The position numbers and the translations under genes were made by a program. This document shows positions 2 to 10,600 of a stretch of DNA of 64,000 nt, one piece after another. Each line of letters opens with the position of its first letter. Position 1 is the first letter of the stretch. The DNA lies in contig NZ_LMUO01000009.1 of NCBI RefSeq assembly GCF_009765905.1, positions 91,087-155,086 on the forward strand, given 5' to 3'. This DNA is from Mucilaginibacter sp. L196. GTDB lineage: Bacteria; Bacteroidota; Bacteroidia; Sphingobacteriales; Sphingobacteriaceae. The notes under the pieces were generated by a model. The model ran no database searches. It was not told the DNA's origin and worked only from the letters and a program-made list of their open reading frames with translations.

Positions 2-1171
2 ACAGGTTTGATCGCTTATTCGAAAGAGCAAAGCATTGATGATCCCTGGATATTGGTGCAAGATACGATGCTGACCGATTATAATAGCCGGAACCTCGAC
101 TTAGGCTATACACAAACCGAGCGGTCAAACGGCTTTTTACTACACCACGGCCTATTATTGGATGAGAACTATCTGCCTTTAGGGCTGCTGCATCAACAGA
201 TCATTCATCGCGAACGAAGTGATTTCGGGAAGGCTTCAAAGTGGAAAAGTAAACCAACTGCTGAGAAAGAGTCAAATAAATGGCTGGAAGGCATAGAAAC
301 GGGTATCCGTTTTAGTAAAGAAACGGGGCGTGGATTGATCCATGTAATGGATCGTGAAGCGGATATTATAGATGTGATCAATAAATGTGTCGAGACAGAC
401 CAATACTTTATCATTAGAGCAAGGCATGACCGTAGTATCTTAACCACTTCGCAAAAAGATAAAGCTGAGAGCCCTGAATTGTTCAGGATGTTCAGCCTTA
501 TGCCATCGTTGGCCGATTCAATTACCATTAACAGGACGTTAAGAAATGAGAAAGGAAGGGAATACAGAGCTGAATGCGATATGAGCTATCACTCCTTTAA
601 GTTCAGAGGTATTAATGAACCTATAAATTGTGTATGGATCAGGGAACGGGGTTGCCCGGAAGGTACTCGTCCGGCAGAGTGGTTTTTACTCACCAACAAA
701 GAAATTAGTAATAAGGCGGATGCAGAAAAAGTACCCGAGATATATTCGAGGCGTTGGACGGTTGAAGACTTTCACAAATGCTATAAAACGGGGTGCAGCA
801 TTGAAAAACGGCAGTTCAACTCTCGTAAATCACTGCTTACCGGCATCGGTTTATTGGCAATAACGGCTGTTGTTCTACTAAGAAGCAGGTATATTTCAAA
901 ACTGGAACATCATACACCCTTCGAAATAATTGTAACAGATAAACACGAGCAAGCGTTAGCGAAAACACTTGCAGATAAATACCTGATGCCAATTGACAGA
1001 CAATTATGCGAACCCTATTCTGTACTTTGGTGGGTGTTATTATTAGGTCGGATGGGTGGGCATCAGGGCTACAAAAGCAAAGGGCTACCCGGCTGGCAAA
1101 TACTTTGGAAAGGCTATTCCTTCTTTCAAACCATTGCTATCGGTTACAAACACGCGAATAACAGCCCTTGA
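2..1171 (+). CDS. IS4-family (Tn5/IS50-like) transposase, 5' end cut by window edge
   Basis: The DDE transposase of an insertion sequence; it cuts and joins the element's ends. The frame is open to the left edge, so about 80 N-terminal residues are missing compared with Tn5 transposase (about 476 aa). Visible motifs: QDTMLTDY holds the first catalytic Asp (about residue 21 here), HVMDREAD the second Asp, and YSRRWTVEDFHKCYKTG fits the IS4 signature Y-x2-R-x3-E-x6-K with the catalytic Glu. The C-terminus (GGHQGYKSKG...W..LWKG) also follows the Tn5 pattern. The frame has no internal stop, so the gene may be intact. I cannot place the right inverted repeat in the 46 bases before the next gene. 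Confidence 0.9.
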   Translation, partial: TGLIAYSKEQSIDDPWILVQDTMLTDYNSRNLDLGYTQTERSNGFLLHHGLLLDENYLPLGLLHQQIIHRERSDFGKASKWKSKPTAEKESNKWLEGIETGIRFSKETGRGLIHVMDREADIIDVINKCVETDQYFIIRARHDRSILTTSQKDKAESPELFRMFSLMPSLADSITINRTLRNEKGREYRAECDMSYHSFKFRGINEPINCVWIRERGCPEGTRPAEWFLLTNKEISNKADAEKVPEIYSRRWTVEDFHKCYKTGCSIEKRQFNSRKSLLTGIGLLAITAVVLLRSRYISKLEHHTPFEIIVTDKHEQALAKTLADKYLMPIDRQLCEPYSVLWWVLLLGRMGGHQGYKSKGLPGWQILWKGYSFFQTIAIGYKHANNSP

Positions 1172-1217: not shown

Positions 1218-1931
1218 CTAATACTCCAAAATATCCCAATGCTGTTTATTCTTCAACGGGTTAGTATATTTTAGCTTTTCCGAGCCATCTTTCCAGCCTT
1301 TGTAGCGGTTACCGTGTGTTAGTTTGCTCAGTCGGCTATATAAATGGTAGTTAGTCATATGGTTATCGATCCAGGCTAATTGTTGCTCCAAAACGGCATC
1401 ACCAATTTTTATGGTATCAATAATATGTGGCAACACGGCAATTTTAAACAAGTTCGGTTCTGCAAATTGGTAACGGTAGTCCATAGCATAAAGCTGGTCG
1501 TTCCAAAATTCAACACGCTCAAAACAGGTGCGCTGCTCTTCGCTTAGTTGGTGCCTGTTATTATCCCAATCATTACGGTAAATACTGTTTAAATAAGGCA
1601 TAGCCTCATAATTAAACCGCTGCCATTGTCTGCGCTTAGGCTTTTTAAACGTTCTGTCGTAATGATACTGTACCGTGGTAATTCTATCCAGTATGTGCTG
1701 ATAAAAATCGGCTTTACTGCTTTTTTGCACTTCCGGTTTCAGCACAAATAAGCGCTTCCAGCCTTTTTGGTAGGGTTCATCTAAAGGTATTACAGTAAGG
1801 AACTCCGGATCTTTTGATATACGTTCCCGCTCCCTGTGTAATTTTAATAATTGTTTATCACGGTCTTCTTTCTGAAGGCGTTTTTTTCTTCGTGCCGATT
1901 TTAAGCGATACGGTAAATTTTGTGTGTCCAT
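1218..1931 (-). CDS. Hypothetical protein, basic N-terminus, about 237 aa
   Basis: A soluble protein of 237 aa with no signal peptide or membrane segment. The first 40 residues are very rich in Lys/Arg (KSARRKKRLQKEDRDKQ), suggesting nucleic-acid contact or a charged helix. The rest is rich in Trp, Tyr and His without a motif I can name. It converges on the transposase and lies just upstream of, and opposite to, the TROVE remnant and tRNA-like array. The unbroken frame and ordinary codon use support a real gene. Function unknown; an accessory gene of the mobile region or a lineage-specific protein are both possible. Confidence 0.7.
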   Translation of the reverse strand: MDTQNLPYRLKSARRKKRLQKEDRDKQLLKLHRERERISKDPEFLTVIPLDEPYQKGWKRLFVLKPEVQKSSKADFYQHILDRITTVQYHYDRTFKKPKRRQWQRFNYEAMPYLNSIYRNDWDNNRHQLSEEQRTCFERVEFWNDQLYAMDYRYQFAEPNLFKIAVLPHIIDTIKIGDAVLEQQLAWIDNHMTNYHLYSRLSKLTHGNRYKGWKDGSEKLKYTNPLKNKQHWDILEY

Positions 1932-2152: not shown

Positions 2153-2190
2153 GATGGAATTATTTTTAAATAATTAAAAATAATTCCATC
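2153..2190. repeat. Perfect AT-rich inverted repeat, 16-bp arms
   Basis: GATGGAATTATTTTTA at 2153-2168 is exactly complementary to 2175-2190, with a 6-base loop (AATAAT). It abuts the point where recognisable TROVE coding homology begins (about 2192). It could be a terminator-like hairpin or a scar of the event that removed the 5' part of that gene. Confidence 0.8.
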
Positions 2191-2191
2191 T

Positions 2192-2359
2192 GCGCAAATA
2201 CACTGCGTAGCCCTGAAGGGCTACGGACAAGCACCAATGCAATTATTGCGCAACGACGTTTACCTGGTAGCAGGCTGGAGCGATAAAGTTTTCGAGGTGT
2301 TAGCAGCCTTAGAAAATGGAGCTTCGGCACTGGATGCCATAAACGAAATAGAACTATAA
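2192..2359 (+). pseudogene. 3' remnant of a TROVE (Ro60/Rsr-like) gene
   Basis: Reading + in the frame ending at the TAA at 2357-2359 gives about 55 residues, including NDVYLVAGWSDKVFEVLAAL and ending in DAINEIEL. The pattern D-[VI]-x3-[AG]-G-[FW]-S-D-x-V-F and the final Glu-rich helix resemble, from memory, the C-terminal von Willebrand A-like part of bacterial TROVE proteins, the RNA-binding Ro60 orthologues. The frame is closed by a stop at 2171-2173 and nothing upstream (1932-2152) looks like TROVE coding sequence, so only the last tenth or so of the gene remains. The tRNA-like array directly downstream supports the call, because bacterial Y RNAs are usually encoded beside the Ro60 gene. 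I have not confirmed it by alignment. Confidence 0.6.
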
Positions 2360-2392: not shown

Positions 2393-2410
2393 TTAAAAAG
2401 GAATTAAAAT

Positions 2411-2534
2411 ATAAGGATGCCGTAGAAACGGGTTACTTCGCACCGCTCAGGGGGGGGCAGTGTGGTGCAAGCCATGCTGAGGGTTCGAGTCCCTAAGGCG
2501 TTCCCCCGTCCCGCATTCGCCCGTTGCTCCTTAT
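2411..2534 (+). ncRNA. Y-RNA-like tRNA-mimic, array unit 1
   Basis: Outer stem ATAAGGA (2411-2417) / TCCTTAT (2528-2534). Inner stem AACGGG (2427-2432) / CCCGTT (2520-2525). Conserved boxes GATGCCGTA and TTACTTCG lie in the 5' strand, and TTGCTC in the 3' strand. A T-arm is seen at about 2479-2493: AGGG, loop TTCGAGT, CCCT. A run of eight or more G lies at about 2450-2457. No clear D-arm. The T-arm lies between closing stems rather than in a linear tRNA. Confidence 0.6.
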
Positions 2535-2543
2535 AAAAACATG

Positions 2544-2640
2544 AAAGGAGGTGTCGTAAATAAGTCTTACTTCGCTTTGGATCCGTTGTCGGGGCTTGCT
2601 TACGGACGGACATGAATGGCTTATTGCCTTTTACCCTTCT
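2544..2640 (+). ncRNA. Y-RNA-like array unit 2, tRNA domain reduced
   Basis: Conserved box GGTGTCGTAAA followed by stem AATAAGTC (2559-2566) / GGCTTATT (2618-2625, one G-T pair), then TTACTTCG. The 3' side has the shared TTGCCTTTTACCC. The interior is short: TCCGT (2582-2586) / ACGGA (2602-2606) hairpin, with no T-arm. Probably a shortened or decayed unit. Confidence 0.5.
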
Positions 2641-2660
2641 TTTTAAAGAAATTAAAACAT

Positions 2661-2795
2661 AAAAAGGTGTCGTAAATAAGTGTTACTTCGATATCCAACC
2701 CTGCGGTCGTCGGTTCGAGTCCGGCCCTTTTACAAAAGGTAGCTCAGATGGTTAGAGCACAGTAGACAGTCACTTATTGATTTTTACCCTTTTTT
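2661..2795 (+). ncRNA. Y-RNA-like tRNA-mimic, array unit 3 (best preserved)
   Basis: Outer stem AAAAAGGT (2661-2668) pairs with ACC(C)TTTTT (2786-2794). Closing stem AATAAGTG (2675-2682) / CACTTATT (2771-2778). Inside, in order: T-arm GTCGG (2709-2713), loop TTCGAGT, CCGGC (2721-2725); acceptor-like hairpin CCTTT (2726-2730) / AAAGG (2735-2739) with loop TACA; D-arm GCTC (2742-2745), loop AGATGGTTA, GAGC (2755-2758). This is a tRNA whose acceptor ends are joined by a small loop and whose opening lies where the anticodon stem would be: a circular permutation. The T-run at the end can act as terminator. Confidence 0.75.
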
Positions 2796-2803
2796 AAGAA
2801 ATT

Positions 2804-2860
2804 AAGAAGATGCCGTAAGTAAGCGTTACTTCAACCTGCCACGTTTAACACGCTTACCGG
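2804..2860 (+). ncRNA. Array unit 4, stem only
   Basis: Keeps the box GATGCCGTAA and the TTACTTC motif. GTAAGCGT (2819-2826) pairs perfectly with ACGCTTAC (2850-2857), enclosing only 23 bases. The whole tRNA-like module is missing, so it is either a deletion derivative or a stem-only RNA. Confidence 0.4.
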
Positions 2861-2883
2861 ATTATCTAAAAATACCTAAACCT

Positions 2884-3014
2884 AAAAGGTGCCGTAAACA
2901 GGTGATACTTCGGTATAACGTCCGCCCAATGGCGGAAGCTGCAGATTCGAGTTCTGCCTGCAATTTATTGCAGTGGTCAAAATTATAATCACCAGTTGCT
3001 TTTTGCCCTTTTTT
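2884..3014 (+). ncRNA. Y-RNA-like tRNA-mimic, array unit 5
   Basis: Outer stem AAAAGG (2884-2889) / CCTTTT (3007-3012). Closing stem AAC-A-GGTGAT (2897-2906) / ATCACC-A-GTT (2988-2997). Inside: hairpin TCCGCC (2921-2926) / GGCGGA (2931-2936); T-arm GCAGA (2941-2945), loop TTCGAGT, TCTGC (2953-2957); acceptor-like hairpin CTGCAA (2958-2963), loop TTTA, TTGCAG (2968-2973). The D-arm is not recognisable. T-rich 3' end. Confidence 0.7.
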
Positions 3015-3021
3015 AAAACAT

Positions 3022-3165
3022 AATGAAAGATGCCGTAAGTGTGTGATACTTCGCTGGTGAAACCGCATAAGCGGGCAGGTTCGAACAATTTCTTGAGCGG
3101 GTTCGTGTTTAGCCTGCGGGTGCGAAAAATCCTGAAAGACACACGCTGACTATTGCTCTTTCATT
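3022..3165 (+). ncRNA. Y-RNA-like array unit 6 (last)
   Basis: Outer stem AATGAAAGA (3022-3030) / TCTTTCATT (3157-3165), nine pairs. Closing stem GTGTGTG (3039-3045) / CACACGC (3140-3146, one G-T pair). Box GATGCCGTAAG and ATACTTCG are conserved. Inside, CCGC (3063-3066) / GCGG (3071-3074) matches the hairpin position of unit 5, followed by GCAGG-TTCGAAC, a T-arm-like half whose partner CCTGC lies at 3113-3117. Confidence 0.6.
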
Positions 3166-3252: not shown

Positions 3253-3289
3253 GATACTATTGATTAGAAATGTACCCAAACCTGACCGC

Positions 3290-6200
3290 ATGAGGAGACT
3301 TTTACTTGCTGTAACTTTTATTGCATTTTCCTTCTCATTTGTATTGCCTGCATTTGCGCAATCTGATCAGGTAGTGGCTAATGGTCACTTTACTACAGCT
3401 GTAAATTTTTCAGGATTAGGTTGTACCTATAACTGGGTAAACGATAATCCTGCTATCGGCTTACCAGCAAGTGGAACAGGTTACATAGGCTCTTTTATAG
3501 GTATAAATAATGGCACTGTTCCAATAATGGGTACCATTACAGCCAAGCCTGCCGTTGGTGGGTTCGCATACATTACCAATGAATCCGACGGTACTATATC
3601 TGTTATCAATGTCAGTAATAACCAGGTTATATCAACTATCCCTATTGCGTCAAACGCCGGGCCTTGGGGTGCAGCTATAAGTCCGGATGGTAAGTACGCG
3701 TATATTGCCGATGCTAACATAGGTACCATCTCAGTTATTAATACGGCAACCAATACTGTAATTAAAACGTTCCCTTCCGCATTACCCTATTCTTTATGTG
3801 TTAGCCCTGATGGCAGCCGTTTATATGTAGCAAATTACTCCACAAATTCAGTTTCAGTAATTAACACGTCAACATATGCGGTAATAAAAACCATTGCAGT
3901 AGGAAAAAGCCCGAGTAGTATAGCTATAAGTCCCAACGGATCAACCGTGTATGTTACAAACAGTGCTTCTTCAACAATTTCGGTAATAAATATTGCTGCC
4001 AATACCGTATCGACAACAATAACTTCACCGGTTTTAAATATCGAAGATGTTGCAGTTAGCCCCGACGGCAATAACATGTATTTTACTGCTCAACAATATG
4101 TATATGTCGTAAATACGGCTACAAACAACATCACCAATAAAATAACTGTAAATGCTGCATACGGTATAGTGGTAAGCCCAGACAGCAAACATATATATGT
4201 AGCAAATGCGGGCACGAATAATGTTTCGGTTATTGACGCTGTTAATCAGTCGGTTGTAGCCACTATCCCGGTAGGTAACCAGCCGGAAGGGGTATCGCTA
4301 AACGCAGATGGAAGTATTTTAATGGTGACAAATTACCGGTCAAATACTGTTTCGGTTATTAATACGGTAACCAATTCAGTCACCAATACTATACCTGTTG
4401 GGGCCTTCCCGCTTTCTTTAGGTAATTTTATCGCGCCAGATCCCTCAGGCTGTACCGGTTCAACCATCACTTTTACAATAACGGTAAATCCATCATCTAC
4501 TACTGTACCTGCTCTTACCGCAAGTGCGGCAACCGGCTCCATCACGTCCTGCGTTGGTACAGCATCTACAAGCCCAAATATCCAGCAGTTCACCGTTTCA
4601 GGCAGTAATTTAACTTCTGCAATTACGGCTACAGCGCCAACCGGGTTTGAAGTATCGCTTACCGCAGCAACAGGCTATGCCAGCAGCGTAACGCTTAACC
4701 AATCATCGGGTAGTTTAAGTAGTACTACCGTTTATGTACGGTCGGCAACAGGTGATGCAGTTGGCCCAATATCAGGCAATGTAGCTTTAAGTTCACCGGG
4801 TGCAGCAAATCAAAATGTAGCAGTATTGGGTACTGTAAATGCCTTGCCAACGGTAAATACTATAACTAATCAAACCTTATTAAATGGCGCAGCAACAACT
4901 GCAATTAATTTTACCGGCACTGGTAACACTGCTTTTACCTGGGTTAATAATACCCCTGGTGTAGGCTTACCGGCAACAGGTTCGGGTAATATTGGCTCGT
5001 TTACAGCGGTTAACAATGGGAACACCCCGATTACCGCGACAATTACGGCTACTCCTGTGTCAGAAGGGTTCGCATATATAGCAAATAGCGGCGATGGTAC
5101 TATCTCTGTAATCAATGTCGCTACCAATACAATCGTATCCACGATCATGCCTCCGCATGATCCCTTTTGCGTTTGCATAAGCCCCGATGGTAGCAAGGCA
5201 TATATTGGATGTAGCGACGGTTCATCTACCGTCACCATTATAAATACCACAACTAATGCAATCATATCTACCATACCTGTAAGTTCATCAGGTGAGTCTA
5301 CAGGTATAGTAGTGAGCCCGGATGGCACCACGCTATATGTGGCAAACTACGTTACAGGTACCGTATCAGTAGTTAATATTGCAACCAGTACTGTTGTTGC
5401 TGTGATCCAGGTCGGGTCAAATCCCTATGGTATAGCTATAAGTCCCGACGGAAGCAAGGTTTACGTAGCATTTACATATACCAGCAATATCTCAGTGATT
5501 GATACTAAAACAAATAATATATCAGCTAATCTAATCTTAGGTTCAGTACCGGATATAGCTGTAAGTCCGAATGGTAATATATATGTGCCGATTTCAAACT
5601 TAAATAACGTATCTGTTCTTAACCCCATAACTAATAGTGTTATAGCGGTTATCCCTGTAAGCGCCAGCCCGGGTGTAATAGCATTGAGTCCTGACGGAAC
5701 CAGGGCTTATGTAGCTACAGGTCAAAGTAATGTTTCAGTGATTAACACATCTACAAATACGGTATTATCCCTGATTTCAGTAGGCTCAAATCCCGAAGCG
5801 ATATGTGTAAGCCCTGATGGATATTTTGTATATGTCACTAATGCAACCTCAAATAATGTTTCGGTAATTAACACTTCAACAAACGTGGTTATAGCCACGG
5901 TTAAAGTGGGTACAAGTCCAATTTCACTGGGTAATTTTGTTACAGCCGGCTCAGGTTGTCCAGGTATCCCAACCACCTTTACCATTACCGTAAATCCATT
6001 ATCCATACCAACAATTACCGCAAGCACAGTAACAGGCAATATTACCGGCTGCGAGGGAACAGCTTCTTCAGACGTTCGGCAATTTACAGTTTCAGGCAGC
6101 GGGTTAACTGGCGACATCACAGCAACCGCCCCTTTAAACTTTGAAATATCGCTTAACGCCACAACCGGCTTTAGTAACAGCCTTACACTAACACAAATCA

Positions 6201-7453
6201 ACGGCACGGTAAGCAATACCATTATTTATGTCAGGGCAGCAGCCACAGCCCCTGCCGGAAGCATTTCGGGCAACGTTGATCTAACATCAGCGGGCGCTAC
6301 AAACCAGGCAGTTGTTGTAAGCTATACTATAAATGCTATACCAAGCGTAGATGCAGTAGTTGGCCAAACCCTGACAAACGGCGCGACGACTTCGCCGGTT
6401 AATTTTAGCGGGACAGCAGCTACATATAATTGGATTAATGATTCGCCCGGCATAGGGCTGGCTGCAAACGGGACGGGTAATATCCCTTCATTTACCAGCG
6501 TAAATAATACCAATAACCCAATCACAGCGACTATCACCGTAACGCCATTAAATGGTACAAGCTGTAGCGGCACACCCATTATATTTACCATCACGGTAAA
6601 CCCACCTGCGCCGTCTACTTTAACAGCAACGGCTAACCTTAGTCCGCTGGCAACTATTTACGGTACACCGTCATCAGCAGAAAGCTTCACTCTTTCGGGT
6701 ACAAATATTACCGGTGGCATAACAATAACTATATCCCCGGGTTTCGAAGTAAGTAATAATGGTTCAACCTACAACAGTACAACTACAATCAATGGTAATG
6801 GCACAATCACATCGGCGCCGGTTTATATCAGATTGGCTGCAACAACCCCGGTAGGGAGTTATACTGGCGGCATTTTGATAGGTACCAATAGTGCTAACAA
6901 TGTCAATGTGCTGATCCCTCTGAGCACGGTAAGCCCGGCACCGTTAATAATTACCGCGAATAACACAACCAAGCCCTTTGGCGCAATTAATCCGCCTTTA
7001 ACGGTAACATATTCAGGCTTTGTTAATAACGATGGCCCTGCGCAGCTTACCTCAAAACCAGTGGTAACCACAACAGCCTTAACCCAATCGCCGCTCGGGC
7101 AGTATCCTATCACGATTAGCGATGCCGTATCGCCTAATTATACTTTTACGTATATCTCCGGCATTTTAACCATAGAACCATCCTTATCCGCACTATCTAT
7201 CCCAAATACCTTTACCCCAAATGGGGATGGGATTAACGATACCTGGGAGATAAAGTATCTTGACTACTACCCTAAATCGACCGTTAATATATTTAACCGC
7301 TGGGGGCAAAAGGTATTCTCGTCCATAGGATATCCTACCCCGTGGGACGGTACCTATAAAGGGACTGTATTACCTTCGGGTACCTATTATTATATTATTG
7401 ACCCTAAAAATGGGCAAGCAGTTTTTTCGGGATGGCTTGCTATTATTAGGTAG
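3290..7453 (+). CDS. Secreted double beta-propeller protein with T9SS type-B C-terminal domain
   Basis: About 1387 aa. The ATG at 3290 gives a clean signal peptide (MRRLLLAVTF...PAFAQ). Layout: a PKD-like module (NWVNDNPAIGL), a YVTN-type propeller of about eight repeats with the pattern SPDG...YVAN..SNTVSVINT.TN, an Ig-like module (GFEVSL), a second PKD module and a second propeller, another Ig-like and a PKD module, an MBG-type domain (ITANNTTKPFG), and the gliding-type C-terminal sorting domain: FTPNGDGINDTW, NIFNRWGQKVF, WDG.Y.G..LPSGTYYY. That domain routes proteins through type IX secretion to the cell surface. The two propeller-Ig blocks look like an internal duplication. Ser/Thr/Asn-rich. 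Probable role is surface adhesion or polymer binding; ligand unknown. Confidence 0.88.
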   Translation: MRRLLLAVTFIAFSFSFVLPAFAQSDQVVANGHFTTAVNFSGLGCTYNWVNDNPAIGLPASGTGYIGSFIGINNGTVPIMGTITAKPAVGGFAYITNESDGTISVINVSNNQVISTIPIASNAGPWGAAISPDGKYAYIADANIGTISVINTATNTVIKTFPSALPYSLCVSPDGSRLYVANYSTNSVSVINTSTYAVIKTIAVGKSPSSIAISPNGSTVYVTNSASSTISVINIAANTVSTTITSPVLNIEDVAVSPDGNNMYFTAQQYVYVVNTATNNITNKITVNAAYGIVVSPDSKHIYVANAGTNNVSVIDAVNQSVVATIPVGNQPEGVSLNADGSILMVTNYRSNTVSVINTVTNSVTNTIPVGAFPLSLGNFIAPDPSGCTGSTITFTITVNPSSTTVPALTASAATGSITSCVGTASTSPNIQQFTVSGSNLTSAITATAPTGFEVSLTAATGYASSVTLNQSSGSLSSTTVYVRSATGDAVGPISGNVALSSPGAANQNVAVLGTVNALPTVNTITNQTLLNGAATTAINFTGTGNTAFTWVNNTPGVGLPATGSGNIGSFTAVNNGNTPITATITATPVSEGFAYIANSGDGTISVINVATNTIVSTIMPPHDPFCVCISPDGSKAYIGCSDGSSTVTIINTTTNAIISTIPVSSSGESTGIVVSPDGTTLYVANYVTGTVSVVNIATSTVVAVIQVGSNPYGIAISPDGSKVYVAFTYTSNISVIDTKTNNISANLILGSVPDIAVSPNGNIYVPISNLNNVSVLNPITNSVIAVIPVSASPGVIALSPDGTRAYVATGQSNVSVINTSTNTVLSLISVGSNPEAICVSPDGYFVYVTNATSNNVSVINTSTNVVIATVKVGTSPISLGNFVTAGSGCPGIPTTFTITVNPLSIPTITASTVTGNITGCEGTASSDVRQFTVSGSGLTGDITATAPLNFEISLNATTGFSNSLTLTQINGTVSNTIIYVRAAATAPAGSISGNVDLTSAGATNQAVVVSYTINAIPSVDAVVGQTLTNGATTSPVNFSGTAATYNWINDSPGIGLAANGTGNIPSFTSVNNTNNPITATITVTPLNGTSCSGTPIIFTITVNPPAPSTLTATANLSPLATIYGTPSSAESFTLSGTNITGGITITISPGFEVSNNGSTYNSTTTINGNGTITSAPVYIRLAATTPVGSYTGGILIGTNSANNVNVLIPLSTVSPAPLIITANNTTKPFGAINPPLTVTYSGFVNNDGPAQLTSKPVVTTTALTQSPLGQYPITISDAVSPNYTFTYISGILTIEPSLSALSIPNTFTPNGDGINDTWEIKYLDYYPKSTVNIFNRWGQKVFSSIGYPTPWDGTYKGTVLPSGTYYYIIDPKNGQAVFSGWLAIIR

Positions 7454-7591
7454 CGGTTAGGGCACATAGCGAAATTTACAGGCATATTAGGTATGTCAGT
7501 TGTAAAATAATTTATCTTTTTACCAAAAGCACTCTTCAATATTTATTTTTCGCAAACCCTCTCAAAACTCAAAAACATCATTTTTCATAGT

Positions 7592-7599
7592 TATATTTG
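7592..7599 (+). promoter_or_regulatory. -7 promoter element (TATATTTG)
   Basis: Exact TAnnTTTG match 19 bases before the ATG of the alpha-2-macroglobulin gene; predicts a short leader. No convincing -33 box. Confidence 0.5.
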
Positions 7600-7618
7600 G
7601 TTAGCAGAGCCTATAAAT

Positions 7619-10600
7619 ATGAACCTTTTACCTTACTTCTCAAACCCTCGCAAACGGCTGGTTGTTCTGGCTGTTATCTTTGCTGTTTTTGTAATCGCCG
7701 TGGTGTTGCTGGTCAGGCATCAGCATAAAAACAAGGTAAACCCGGCGTTTGGTAAGTATGTGGAATCCTATACCTCGGGTGTAATATCCCGCACGGGTAC
7801 TATTCGCATCAAGCTCTCAGGCGATGTACAAACGGGGCACGTGAAGAACGAAGCGTTGAGTGATGATGCATTCAGTTTCTCTCCATCTATAAAAGGAAAA
7901 GCCTACTGGGTTGATGCGCAAACCATCGAATTTAAACCGGCCACAGAAATGGACCCGGGCAAGTATTACGAGGCTGATTTTAACTTAAGTAAGGTAACCG
8001 GCGTGCCGCCTGATATGGATCACTTCACATTTTGGTTCAAAACCATCCGCCCCGATTATACCATTACTTTTAATGGCCTGCAAACCGCTACCACCACCTC
8101 GCTCGATAAAATGAAGCTGACCGGCGTGATCAAAACAGCTGATAAAGAAGCGCCTTTAAGTATTGAGCGGATCATCAGCAAGAATTATCCATCCAACGTG
8201 CTGATCACCTGGCAGCATGATGATGCCAATAACACGCATACCTTTACCATTGATAATATCAACAGGCCACTAAAAGGCTCATCCACGCTTACCGTAAACT
8301 GGGATGGTACAGGCTTAAACATCGATACCAAAGGCACAAAGGATTTTGAAATACCTGCCGTAGGCGTATTTAAGGTACTGAATATTCGCGCGGTGCAGGA
8401 CCAAGATCAATATGTGGAGGTCCAGTTCTCAAACCCGATACTCATCGGGCAGGAATTAACCGGCTTAACCGGCATCAATAATATTGCCGATGCGGCCTAT
8501 ACTATTGATGGCAGTTTGGTTAAAATATATGCCCCCGAACATCTGCAGGGCAGCTATACCGCTTTTGTTAACGAGGGCGTGAGCGACATCAGCCACAATA
8601 AAATAACGCAGGGTTTTACCGCCAATGTGTTTTTTGAGAACCGTTTGCCTACGGTAACCATACCCGGTAAAGGTGTTATTATGCCCGATTCCGGCAGGTT
8701 AACTTTGCCGTTCGAAGCGTCCAATTTAAAGGCAGTGGATGTAAGTATCATCAAGATATATGAAAACAACGTACCCCAGTTTTTGCAGAATAACGACCTG
8801 ACCGGCGAAGACGGCCTAAGGCAGGTGGGTAAATCCGTGCTGCAAACTACCATTAGGTTGGATGACGATAAAAATATCGACCTAACCAAGACTAACCGTT
8901 TTATGCTTGATCTGGATCATTTGATGCATACCGAGCCGGGAGCTATTTACCGGGTGATCATAGGTTACCGCAAAGAATATTCCTTATTCAATTGCAAAGT
9001 GAACGGTGGCACATCCGTCAGCAAAACCGATACTGACGAGAGTGATGACGAAGGCGAAGAAGACGGCGGTAACGGTAATTCATCAGGAACAAGTTTAGAT
9101 GATGATGATACCTTTTGGGCTCGATATGATAGTTATTATCCTGATGGCTACAATTGGAAGGATAAAGACGATCCATGCACAAACTCTTTTTACACTAAAG
9201 ATAAATGGGCGGTAAGAAACATCATCGCTTCAAACATTGGCCTCATCGCTAAAAAAGGTAACGACAATAATATGCTTGTTGCGGTAACTAATATTATGGA
9301 TGCCGCGCCGATGCAGGGTGTGGAAGTTACCCTGCTCGATTATCAGCACCAGATGGTGGCCAGAGCCATATCTGATGCTAATGGCTTTGCTAATATCAGC
9401 CTTAAACATAAACCTTTTTTGCTGGTAGCTAAAAAAGGCGACGAACGCGGCTATTTAAAACTGGATGATGGCAGTGCGCTATTACTATCAAAATTTGATG
9501 TAGGTGGTGAGCAAATTCAAAACGGTTTAAAAGGTTTTATTTATGGCGATCGCGGTGTTTGGCGCCCCGGTGATTCGCTTTTCGTTTCTTTTATTTTGGA
9601 GGACAAGCTTAAAACCCTGCCACCGGATCATCCTGTGCAGTTTGAGTTTTATAATCCTGCCGGGCAATTATACAAACGCATTACGCGCACCAGCTCAGTT
9701 GATGGGTTTTATAGTTTCCATACCGCTACCACAACATCATCGCCAACTGGTACCTGGACGGCCAAAGTAAAAGTTGGTGGTGCCGAATTTGATAAGAACC
9801 TGAAGGTGGAAACCATTATGCCGAACCGCATGAAGATAGCGCTGGACTTCGGCGGCAAAACGGCACTTACCAAAGGCAGCGATGTTAGTGGTACACTAAA
9901 AGCAACCTGGCTCTTCGGTGGTGCGGCGCAAAATTTGAAAGCTAAGGTTGATGCCTTTGTTAGTCCGCAGGTAACCCGCTTTAAAGGTTTTAATGATTAT
10001 GTTTTTGATGACCCTACGCTTGCTTTTAACACCCAAACACAAACTGTTTTTGATAACCGTTTAAATGCTGATGGTGTAGCCACGGTAAACGCCAATATTC
10101 ATGTAGATAAGCAGGCTCCCGGCCAGTTAAGGGCTAACTTTTTGATCAAGGTTTTTGAACCGGGCGGTAATTTCAGTATACAACAAGTCGAGCTACCTTA
10201 CAATGCTTACACCGGCTATGTTGGCATTAAAACACCCGATGGCGGCGAATATACCGACATGTTGCCTACCAATCACGATAACCCAATTGATATTGCCGAT
10301 GTAGATGTAAACGGAAACCCATTCTCCGGAAACCGCAATGTAACCGTTGAATTGTACAAGATACAATGGCGCTGGTGGTGGGATCAAACTGGCAATGACC
10401 TGAGCAACTTCACCCAAAACCAATATAACAGTTTGGTAAGCACCCAAAGCGTTCAACTGGTGAACGGCCGGGGTAAATGGGACCTGAATTTAAGTGAAAA
10501 TAATTGGGGCCGATACCTCATTCGTGTAAAAGATGAGCAAACCGGGCACTCTACCGGTAAAATTGTATATGTGGATTATGCCGAACGCATGCAGCAAGGC

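Follow-up and report, generated by a model that had tools for sequence, protein, structure and literature searches.

The stretch of DNA analysed here (64 kb in length, referred to as the window) contains near its start a Ro60 locus minus most of its protein gene, followed by an array of six short units (Table 1). When the Ro60 protein of a relative (553 aa) was searched against the whole genome, the sole match was to its residues 493-552, at window positions 2177-2356 and followed by a stop codon (2357-2359), and the remaining ~490 codons of the gene were not found with this complete query. The last 57 residues of the stub align at the C-terminus of Ro60 in 79 of 80 named loci of relatives (the best 80 of 524, described below), with identities of 74-79% in the first 12 listed. 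The genome is rated 100% complete and has no match to the TROVE domain, nor was RtcB found in it, beside the stub or elsewhere. The DDE transposase encoded upstream of the stub, which we take to be IS4-like, is a possible agent of the Ro60 loss, and an AT-rich inverted repeat (AGATGGAATTATT...AATAATTCCATCT) at 2152-2191, which overlaps the start of the stub, may mark the deletion junction. Two further genes flank the locus. One (1218-1931, minus strand) encodes a 237-aa protein with no Pfam match, relatives of which lie upstream of Ro60 in two of the best 80 of 524 named loci (L059, 59%; L078, 45%), and the other (3260-7453) encodes a 1397-aa protein in which YNCE/lactonase-like beta-propellers and an MBG_2 domain are combined with a CHU_C type IX secretion signal.

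Table 1. Features of the Ro60 locus in the window, with positions counted from the first letter of the window.
Feature	Position	Strand	Remarks
DDE transposase, upstream of the Ro60 stub	8..1171	+	Pfam PF01609, E 6.3e-8; reading frame starts before the window
Ro60/Rsr remnant (vWA end), final 60 codons plus stop codon	2177..2359	+	77% identity to the Ro60 of a relative
Unit 1	2408..2534	+	Class A, hairpin and T-arm; class A HMM built without the window, E 9.5e-31
Predicted Ro60-binding helix of unit 1, 5' strand GGATGCC	2415..2421	+	Bulged-U helix from RNAalifold, classes A, B, E, F
Unit 2	2544..2640	+	Class C, no recognisable tRNA module; HMM E 5.6e-25
Unit 3	2660..2793	+	Class B, YrlA type (T-arm, acceptor hairpin, D-arm); HMM E 4e-33
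Unit 4	2802..2861	+	Class D, minimal Y-like (closing stem and short loop); HMM E 9.7e-10
Unit 5	2882..3012	+	Class E, reads as a tRNA circularly permuted and opened in the D-loop; HMM E 6.7e-28
Unit 6	3022..3163	+	Class F, hairpin and T-arm, 44-nt insertion; HMM E 6.6e-22

The first box of unit 1 lies 56 nt downstream of the Ro60 stub, and a box similar to its GGATGCC stands at the start of all six units. The original prediction placed six units with a GRTGYCGTA...TACTTC motif at this locus, and these are present where it put them, with motif starts at 2416, 2550, 2666, 2809, 2888, and 3029 (units 1-6). The exact pattern has six matches in the 5.33-Mb genome, all of them in the array. Class HMMs built from relatives only also find all six units and, since the best class model differs for every unit with E values from 4e-33 to 1e-9, the window holds one unit of each class; outside positions 2408-3163 these HMMs have no match in the 64-kb window at E≤1. 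The T-loops TTCGAGT expected in units 1, 3, and 5 are in the sequence, and the T-rich 3' end claimed for every unit holds in part, unit 4 having none and unit 1 only CTCCTTAT. Unit 2 is without a T-arm, and that of unit 6 is present and split by an insertion. No damage is visible in units 1-3. Unit 4 ends before the RCYC strand, where its class D relatives end in ...GCTCTTC or the like, unit 6 carries 44 nt inserted in its T-loop (at about 3084-3127) that are absent from the other 19 aligned rows, and unit 5 has lost one D-stem pair. With only a stub of Ro60 left in the genome, the array is therefore likely a leftover.

Arrays behind Ro60 and their classes of unit

Among 60 genomes, that of the window and those of 59 relatives, 14 have a member of the TROVE family, all 14 being of the same genus as the window, and each of these Ro60-bearing relatives contains the exact motif and also has rtcB somewhere in the genome. 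Among the 46 TROVE-less genomes, the exact motif occurs only in that of the window (six matches) and in one other, G008 (one match). The match in G008 was rejected as a real unit and is counted as chance, because there is no array around it and a reversed control pattern also yields five matches in the same 60 genomes.

Named genomes with a Ro60 alignment were also scanned, and the best 80 of 524 loci come from Mucilaginibacter, Pedobacter, Desertivirga, Dyadobacter, Flavobacterium, Dysgonomonas, Bacteroides, Prevotella, and others, several of the records being the same contigs as same-genus genomes of the 60. Across these best 80 loci the 1.5 kb downstream of the Ro60 match contains 386 motif matches (3.26 per kb) and the Ro60 strand elsewhere contains 20 (0.022 per kb), while the opposite strand has one match in the same 1.5 kb and 23 over its whole length. 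Recurrence of such arrays beside TROVE genes, which the original prediction had named as a check, is borne out, as at least three units lie behind Ro60 in 71 of these best 80 of 524 loci and at least two in 75. Arrays in this set occur in Mucilaginibacter, Pedobacter, Flavobacterium, Dyadobacter, and one Bacteroides, among others, and the largest array parsed has 11 units (L040/L097). Fewer than two units were found at L088 (which has no downstream sequence), L091 (Prevotella), L103 and L119 (the two Dysgonomonas loci, with one unit each), and L108. The Prevotella MAG L091 has five spaced matches to a loose pattern upstream, at -5008 to -4444 relative to the Ro60 end, and one further motif match 19 nt downstream of Ro60, and its array may have moved upstream. 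For the phylum, 395 genomes were searched with a looser pattern and the counts were read by eye from lists, giving matches in 95 genomes, most of them lone and far from TROVE. Of the 27 TROVE-bearing genomes in this sample, 12 have a match within ~2 kb of TROVE and 15 have none near it; groups of at least three matches within 1.5 kb occur in five of the 27 and, among the 368 TROVE-less genomes, in the window's own genome only.

The array system sits near RNA repair in part of the loci. For the best 80 of 524 named loci, rtcB lies within the examined flanks in 38, and each of two RlaP-family query proteins has a match in 15. At L030, two adjacent RlaP-family genes follow the array (7407-8162 and 8159-9226; PF10127, RNA repair pathway polymerase-beta-like), the second of which is a partial profile match. 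The flanks of other Ro60 loci contain a Flavo-1 RNA (L093:5172-5271, minus strand) and a cluster of three ordinary tRNA genes (L060:5354-5593, minus strand). Four IMG/VR contigs filed as viral (L124-L126 and L128) combine a Ro60 homologue with 3-5 motif units that precede Ro60 in L124/L125 and follow it in L126/L128, and are possibly prophages or phages with Y RNA arrays of their own; the remaining 18 of 22 scanned IMG/VR contigs have 0-2 motif matches on that strand.

Sorting by motif rules was based on the 268 units with an accepted 3' arm among 396 motif matches (128 were without one) and gave 51 units of class A, 78 of B, 12 of C, 51 of D, 21 of E, 29 of F, and 26 others, by rules that are rough, were tuned by eye, and misfiled at least two class-E-like units (L061_7 and L067_5). 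The order of classes within an array is a tendency, class A being first in 30 and class F last in 26 of 42 loci (those with at least three units in L044-L087). Dyadobacter belongs to another order and, since its rows fit the same class alignments (L080 in classes A and F, L085 in F), the classes look old.

Covarying helices and tRNA-like heads

For classes A, B, E, and F, RNAalifold predicts a lower helix, AAGR(U)GY/RCYCUU, in which the GRTGY box pairs with the 3' RCYC box around a bulged U. The units thus have a closing stem with a bulged helix of the Ro60 type, as Y RNAs do, with unit 4 of the window lacking the 3' strand. In a test of the boxes, where the 3' site was chosen by the upper stem and any letter was allowed at the tested places, 160 of the 186 distinct cases have a Watson-Crick R:Y pair (shuffles, mean 84, maximum 108) and 150 of the 186 a Watson-Crick Y:R pair (mean 96, maximum 122). 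Both pairs lie above every shuffle when L044-L078 with the window (114 and 104 of 125) and L079 onwards (47 and 47 of 62) are taken separately. The closing stems had been predicted to keep their pairing through changes of sequence, and the upper stems do so beyond chance: with the 3' arm located by the motif alone (found for 262 of the 396 motif matches), units form 6.53 of 8 pairs with their own arms versus 4.69 with swapped ones (maximum of 1000 swaps, 4.96), and 6.57 versus 5.04 (maximum 5.33, n=243) when arms are swapped inside the same array. In the window, the upper stems of units 2, 3, 5, and 6 pair at 7-8 of 8 positions (unit 2 at 8 of 8 possible).

Within the class alignments, 97.3% of cells are paired in class B, 96.4% in class A, and 97.0% in class F, with 16, 11, and 10 pairs, respectively, changed on both sides, the class A count having used the CCCGTT-type partner as upper stem where a later swap test favours another. 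The covariation scores of these three classes are 0.33-0.37 versus 0.15-0.18 when shuffled and at most 0.095 when slid, and 0 or 1 of 500 shuffles reach their counts while slid versions are 32-57% paired, comparisons in which the structures, being derived from the same alignments, are favoured over the slid versions and in which related sequences can exceed shuffles even without structure. Significant covariation, which had been suggested as a check, is found in the boxes, the upper stems, and the class A, B, and F counts.

The original prediction took CCCGTT (2520-2525) as the upper-stem partner in unit 1, a choice also made by RNAalifold and by the single-sequence fold, but the class A swaps go against it. 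Swapped arms pair as well as the units' own in 952 of 1000 trials at the CCCGTT site and in 1 of 1000 at the CCCGCATTC site (about 2510-2518), both in 35 units with 14 distinct stems, and we lean towards CCCGCATTC rather than CCCGTT as the probable partner. Neither partner is supported in 41 class A units over a range that cuts off the distal site (distal, 5.68 versus 5.54 swapped, maximum 5.78; adjacent, 4.71 versus 4.84). Single-sequence folding is weak as modelled (z values for units 1-6, in order, -0.75, -0.89, -0.62, -2.17, -2.36, and -2.39), units 1-3 being unremarkable; in the best single-sequence fold of unit 2 the closing upper stem is not formed.

Above these stems, a tRNA-like module is seen in units 3 and 5 and a T-arm alone in units 1 and 6, and none is seen in units 2 and 4. 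The array had been described as six circularly permuted tRNA mimics, which goes too far, permutation being seen in units 3 and 5 and not in units 1, 2, 4, and 6, and the acceptor-like hairpin said to follow the T-arm in units 3 and 5 agrees with the layout of classes B and E. In unit 1, a GGGGG/CCCCC stem round the hairpin and T-arm was seen by eye and also in the single-sequence fold, and is absent from the consensus fold. Unit 3 matches the Rfam model of YrlA (RF02553) at 2701-2764 with 41.6 bits (E 1.6e-7), below the gathering score of 69 bits. Five matches to YrlA of 32-42 bits, two of them over the full model, were found in four of five relatives' loci (none in L093), and at the cut-off there are none in 11 relatives' loci. 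Like YrlA of Salmonella and Mycobacterium, class B has a T-arm, acceptor hairpin, and D-arm on a closing stem and lies beside Ro60, with RNA-repair genes adjoining in part of the array loci. Unlike YrlA, unit 3 stays below the cut-off, the arrays contain several copies together with several other classes, and the GRTGY/RCYC helix is outside the region aligned by the Rfam model. Class A resembles the consensus of the Deinococcus radiodurans Y RNA (Deinococcus_Y_RNA, RF01053) in its GCAA-type hairpin followed by a T-arm and in a GUUACUUC stretch, but the match of unit 1 to that model is not significant (21.7 bits, E 0.45, gathering score 80 bits), and class A is one member of an array.

The order of elements in class E is GG-N3-GAAC, an anticodon-like hairpin, a T-arm, an acceptor hairpin, and GTTC-AG. 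We read it as an entire tRNA that is opened within the D-loop, where, by tRNA numbering, the Y stem separates the AG from the GG. The class E set was collected with a pattern of its own; one of its 20 matches, L113_2, resembled YrlA and was excluded, which left 19. This pattern missed the rule-based members in L068, L071, L087, and L093 and caught L061_7 and L067_5, which the rules file elsewhere. The D-stem, counted by script since MAFFT had shifted it and RNAalifold missed it, is fully paired in 17 of the 19 units (GTTC/GAAC, GCTC/GAGC, GTTC/GAGC, and GTC with GAC or GAT), the exceptions being L047 (3 of 4 pairs) and unit 5 of the window (2 of 3). With the permutation undone, 7 of the 19 class E units, unit 5 of the window among them, are recognised as tRNAs by ARAGORN, which finds none in the natural order (0/19) or after shuffling (0/380); one of the 19, L059, was cut at the wrong place in this test. 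The anticodon-like loops are short and varied and have no conserved anticodon, so decoding by class E is unlikely.

A proposed role for the array and its alternatives

Y RNAs, Ro60, and their tRNA mimicry are already known. Rsr binds Y RNA through its lower stem and, in Deinococcus, the Y RNA tethers Rsr to PNPase and gates it (PMC4726728, PMC7790460). tRNA-modifying enzymes accept YrlA as a substrate (PMC8394870). In animal Y RNAs the Ro60 site is described as a helix that is broken by one bulged base and also by a larger bulge (PMC4726728). The array units share this arrangement with vertebrate Y RNAs but have a bulged U instead of a C and carry tRNA-like heads, and the likeness is one of form, with no sequence homology claimed. 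Ro60, Y RNAs, and RNA-repair genes also stand together in the Salmonella RNA repair operon rsr-yrlBA-rtcBA (PMC7790460), the name of which gives two Y RNAs (yrlB and yrlA), whereas the arrays mostly have at least three units and up to 11, and some Mucilaginibacter loci have RlaP genes. A provisional literature search, which did not cover a key survey (Chen 2014), found no report of multi-class Y RNA arrays or of a D-loop-opened class; multi-copy Y RNA loci in Bacteroidota may have been reported before.

That the array is Y-RNA-like, as originally predicted, agrees with the stub just upstream, with the arrays behind intact Ro60 in relatives, and with the resemblance of unit 3 to YrlA below the cut-off; the conserved classes across Bacteroidota, the box covariation, the Ro60 deletion, and the two damaged units were not part of that prediction. 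We propose that the array consists of six diverged predicted Y RNAs, one per class, of a kind that lies behind Ro60 in relatives and is predicted to be bound by Ro60 via the shared bulged helix, and that with Ro60 reduced here to a 60-codon stub it is likely a relic, a reading to which we give a probability of roughly 0.78. Counting against it are the YrlA scores below the gathering cut-off, the single-sequence folds of units 1-3, the rough class rules, and the 15 of 27 TROVE-bearing genomes in the phylum sample in which the strict motif has no match near TROVE. Since Ro60 and RtcB are gone and units 4-6 are damaged, a recent relic is the simplest reading, and the array of this one genome is probably a relic of a widespread multi-class Y RNA system.

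In the mechanism that we put forward, each unit would be a separate small RNA, the lower helix of which (AAGR-U-GY/RCYCUU with its bulged U), together with the CGUA/UACUUC loops, would attach to the outer surface of the Ro60 ring. The variable head, which is a YrlA-type tRNA mimic, a putative D-loop-opened tRNA, a hairpin with T-arm, or nothing, would then determine which molecules are recruited or blocked by the Ro60 particle. As with Rsr and PNPase in Deinococcus, the tRNA-like heads may tether a nuclease or a tRNA-handling enzyme to Ro60, while the headless class D may only cap it, and the array would be a set of exchangeable adaptors for one Ro60 protein. More broadly, Ro60 of Bacteroidota might be a multi-tool served by a bank of specialised Y RNAs that is conserved and only loosely ordered (as many as 11 per locus, in at least six classes) and that loads one ring with different tRNA-shaped adaptors. 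The bank would include an RNA of a new kind, built from a complete, circularly permuted tRNA with the Ro60-binding stem spliced into its D-loop, and would decay after the loss of Ro60; we see the chances of this wider proposal as evenly balanced.

The array could instead still work here without Ro60, its RNAs being expressed and serving another partner such as PNPase or tRNA-modifying enzymes. The well-paired upper stems of units 2, 3, 5, and 6 fit such continued use, as do units 1-3 without visible damage and unit 5 with the loss of one D-stem pair only, but with Ro60 and RtcB gone, unit 4 without its 3' arm, unit 6 with its insertion, and an array kept in no other of the 46 TROVE-less sampled genomes, we consider it unlikely. 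Slightly less probable again is that the tRNA-like heads are decoys for tRNA-cutting nucleases or toxins, their diversity mirroring several attackers and Ro60 only stabilising them. Neighbouring RNA-repair genes (rtcB and RlaP) would suit decoys, and YrlA has been proposed as a possible competitive inhibitor of an anticodon nuclease (PMC7790460), but class E offers no conserved anticodon in its anticodon-like hairpins and classes C and D have no tRNA part. Ordinary tRNA genes or pseudogenes in a degrading tRNA cluster were rejected as very improbable: despite the resemblance of the T-arms and D-arms to tRNA and the class E units recognised once the permutation is undone, ARAGORN finds no tRNA in the window, Rfam has no match there at the gathering cut-off, that of linear tRNA (RF00005) included, class E in its natural order gives none, and the covarying closing helices belong to no tRNA. 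The spread of a repeat element or coding repeat through duplication, with no RNA function, which the tandem units and their common short motifs might suggest, was rejected as just as improbable on the covariation and strand-specific placement, since the classes persist across genera with compensatory changes and the placement behind Ro60 is specific to strand and place.

Six diverged predicted Y RNAs behind a lost Ro60, the reading we prefer, would bear on questions beyond this genome. Neither the array of the window nor those of 11 tested loci are annotated by Rfam at its own cut-off, so routine annotation probably overlooks such arrays. Ro60 particles of commensals, with their Y RNAs, have been implicated in lupus (Greiling 2018, as given in PMC11277228), which makes the full RNA set of practical weight. 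Class E, if our reading of it is true, would be a second route, besides YrlA, from a tRNA to a Ro60 partner. In our judgement, the arrays bear on why a single Ro60 is accompanied by several Y RNAs in a cell, as one short locus, repeated in many Bacteroidota, holds several classes that could be removed one by one.
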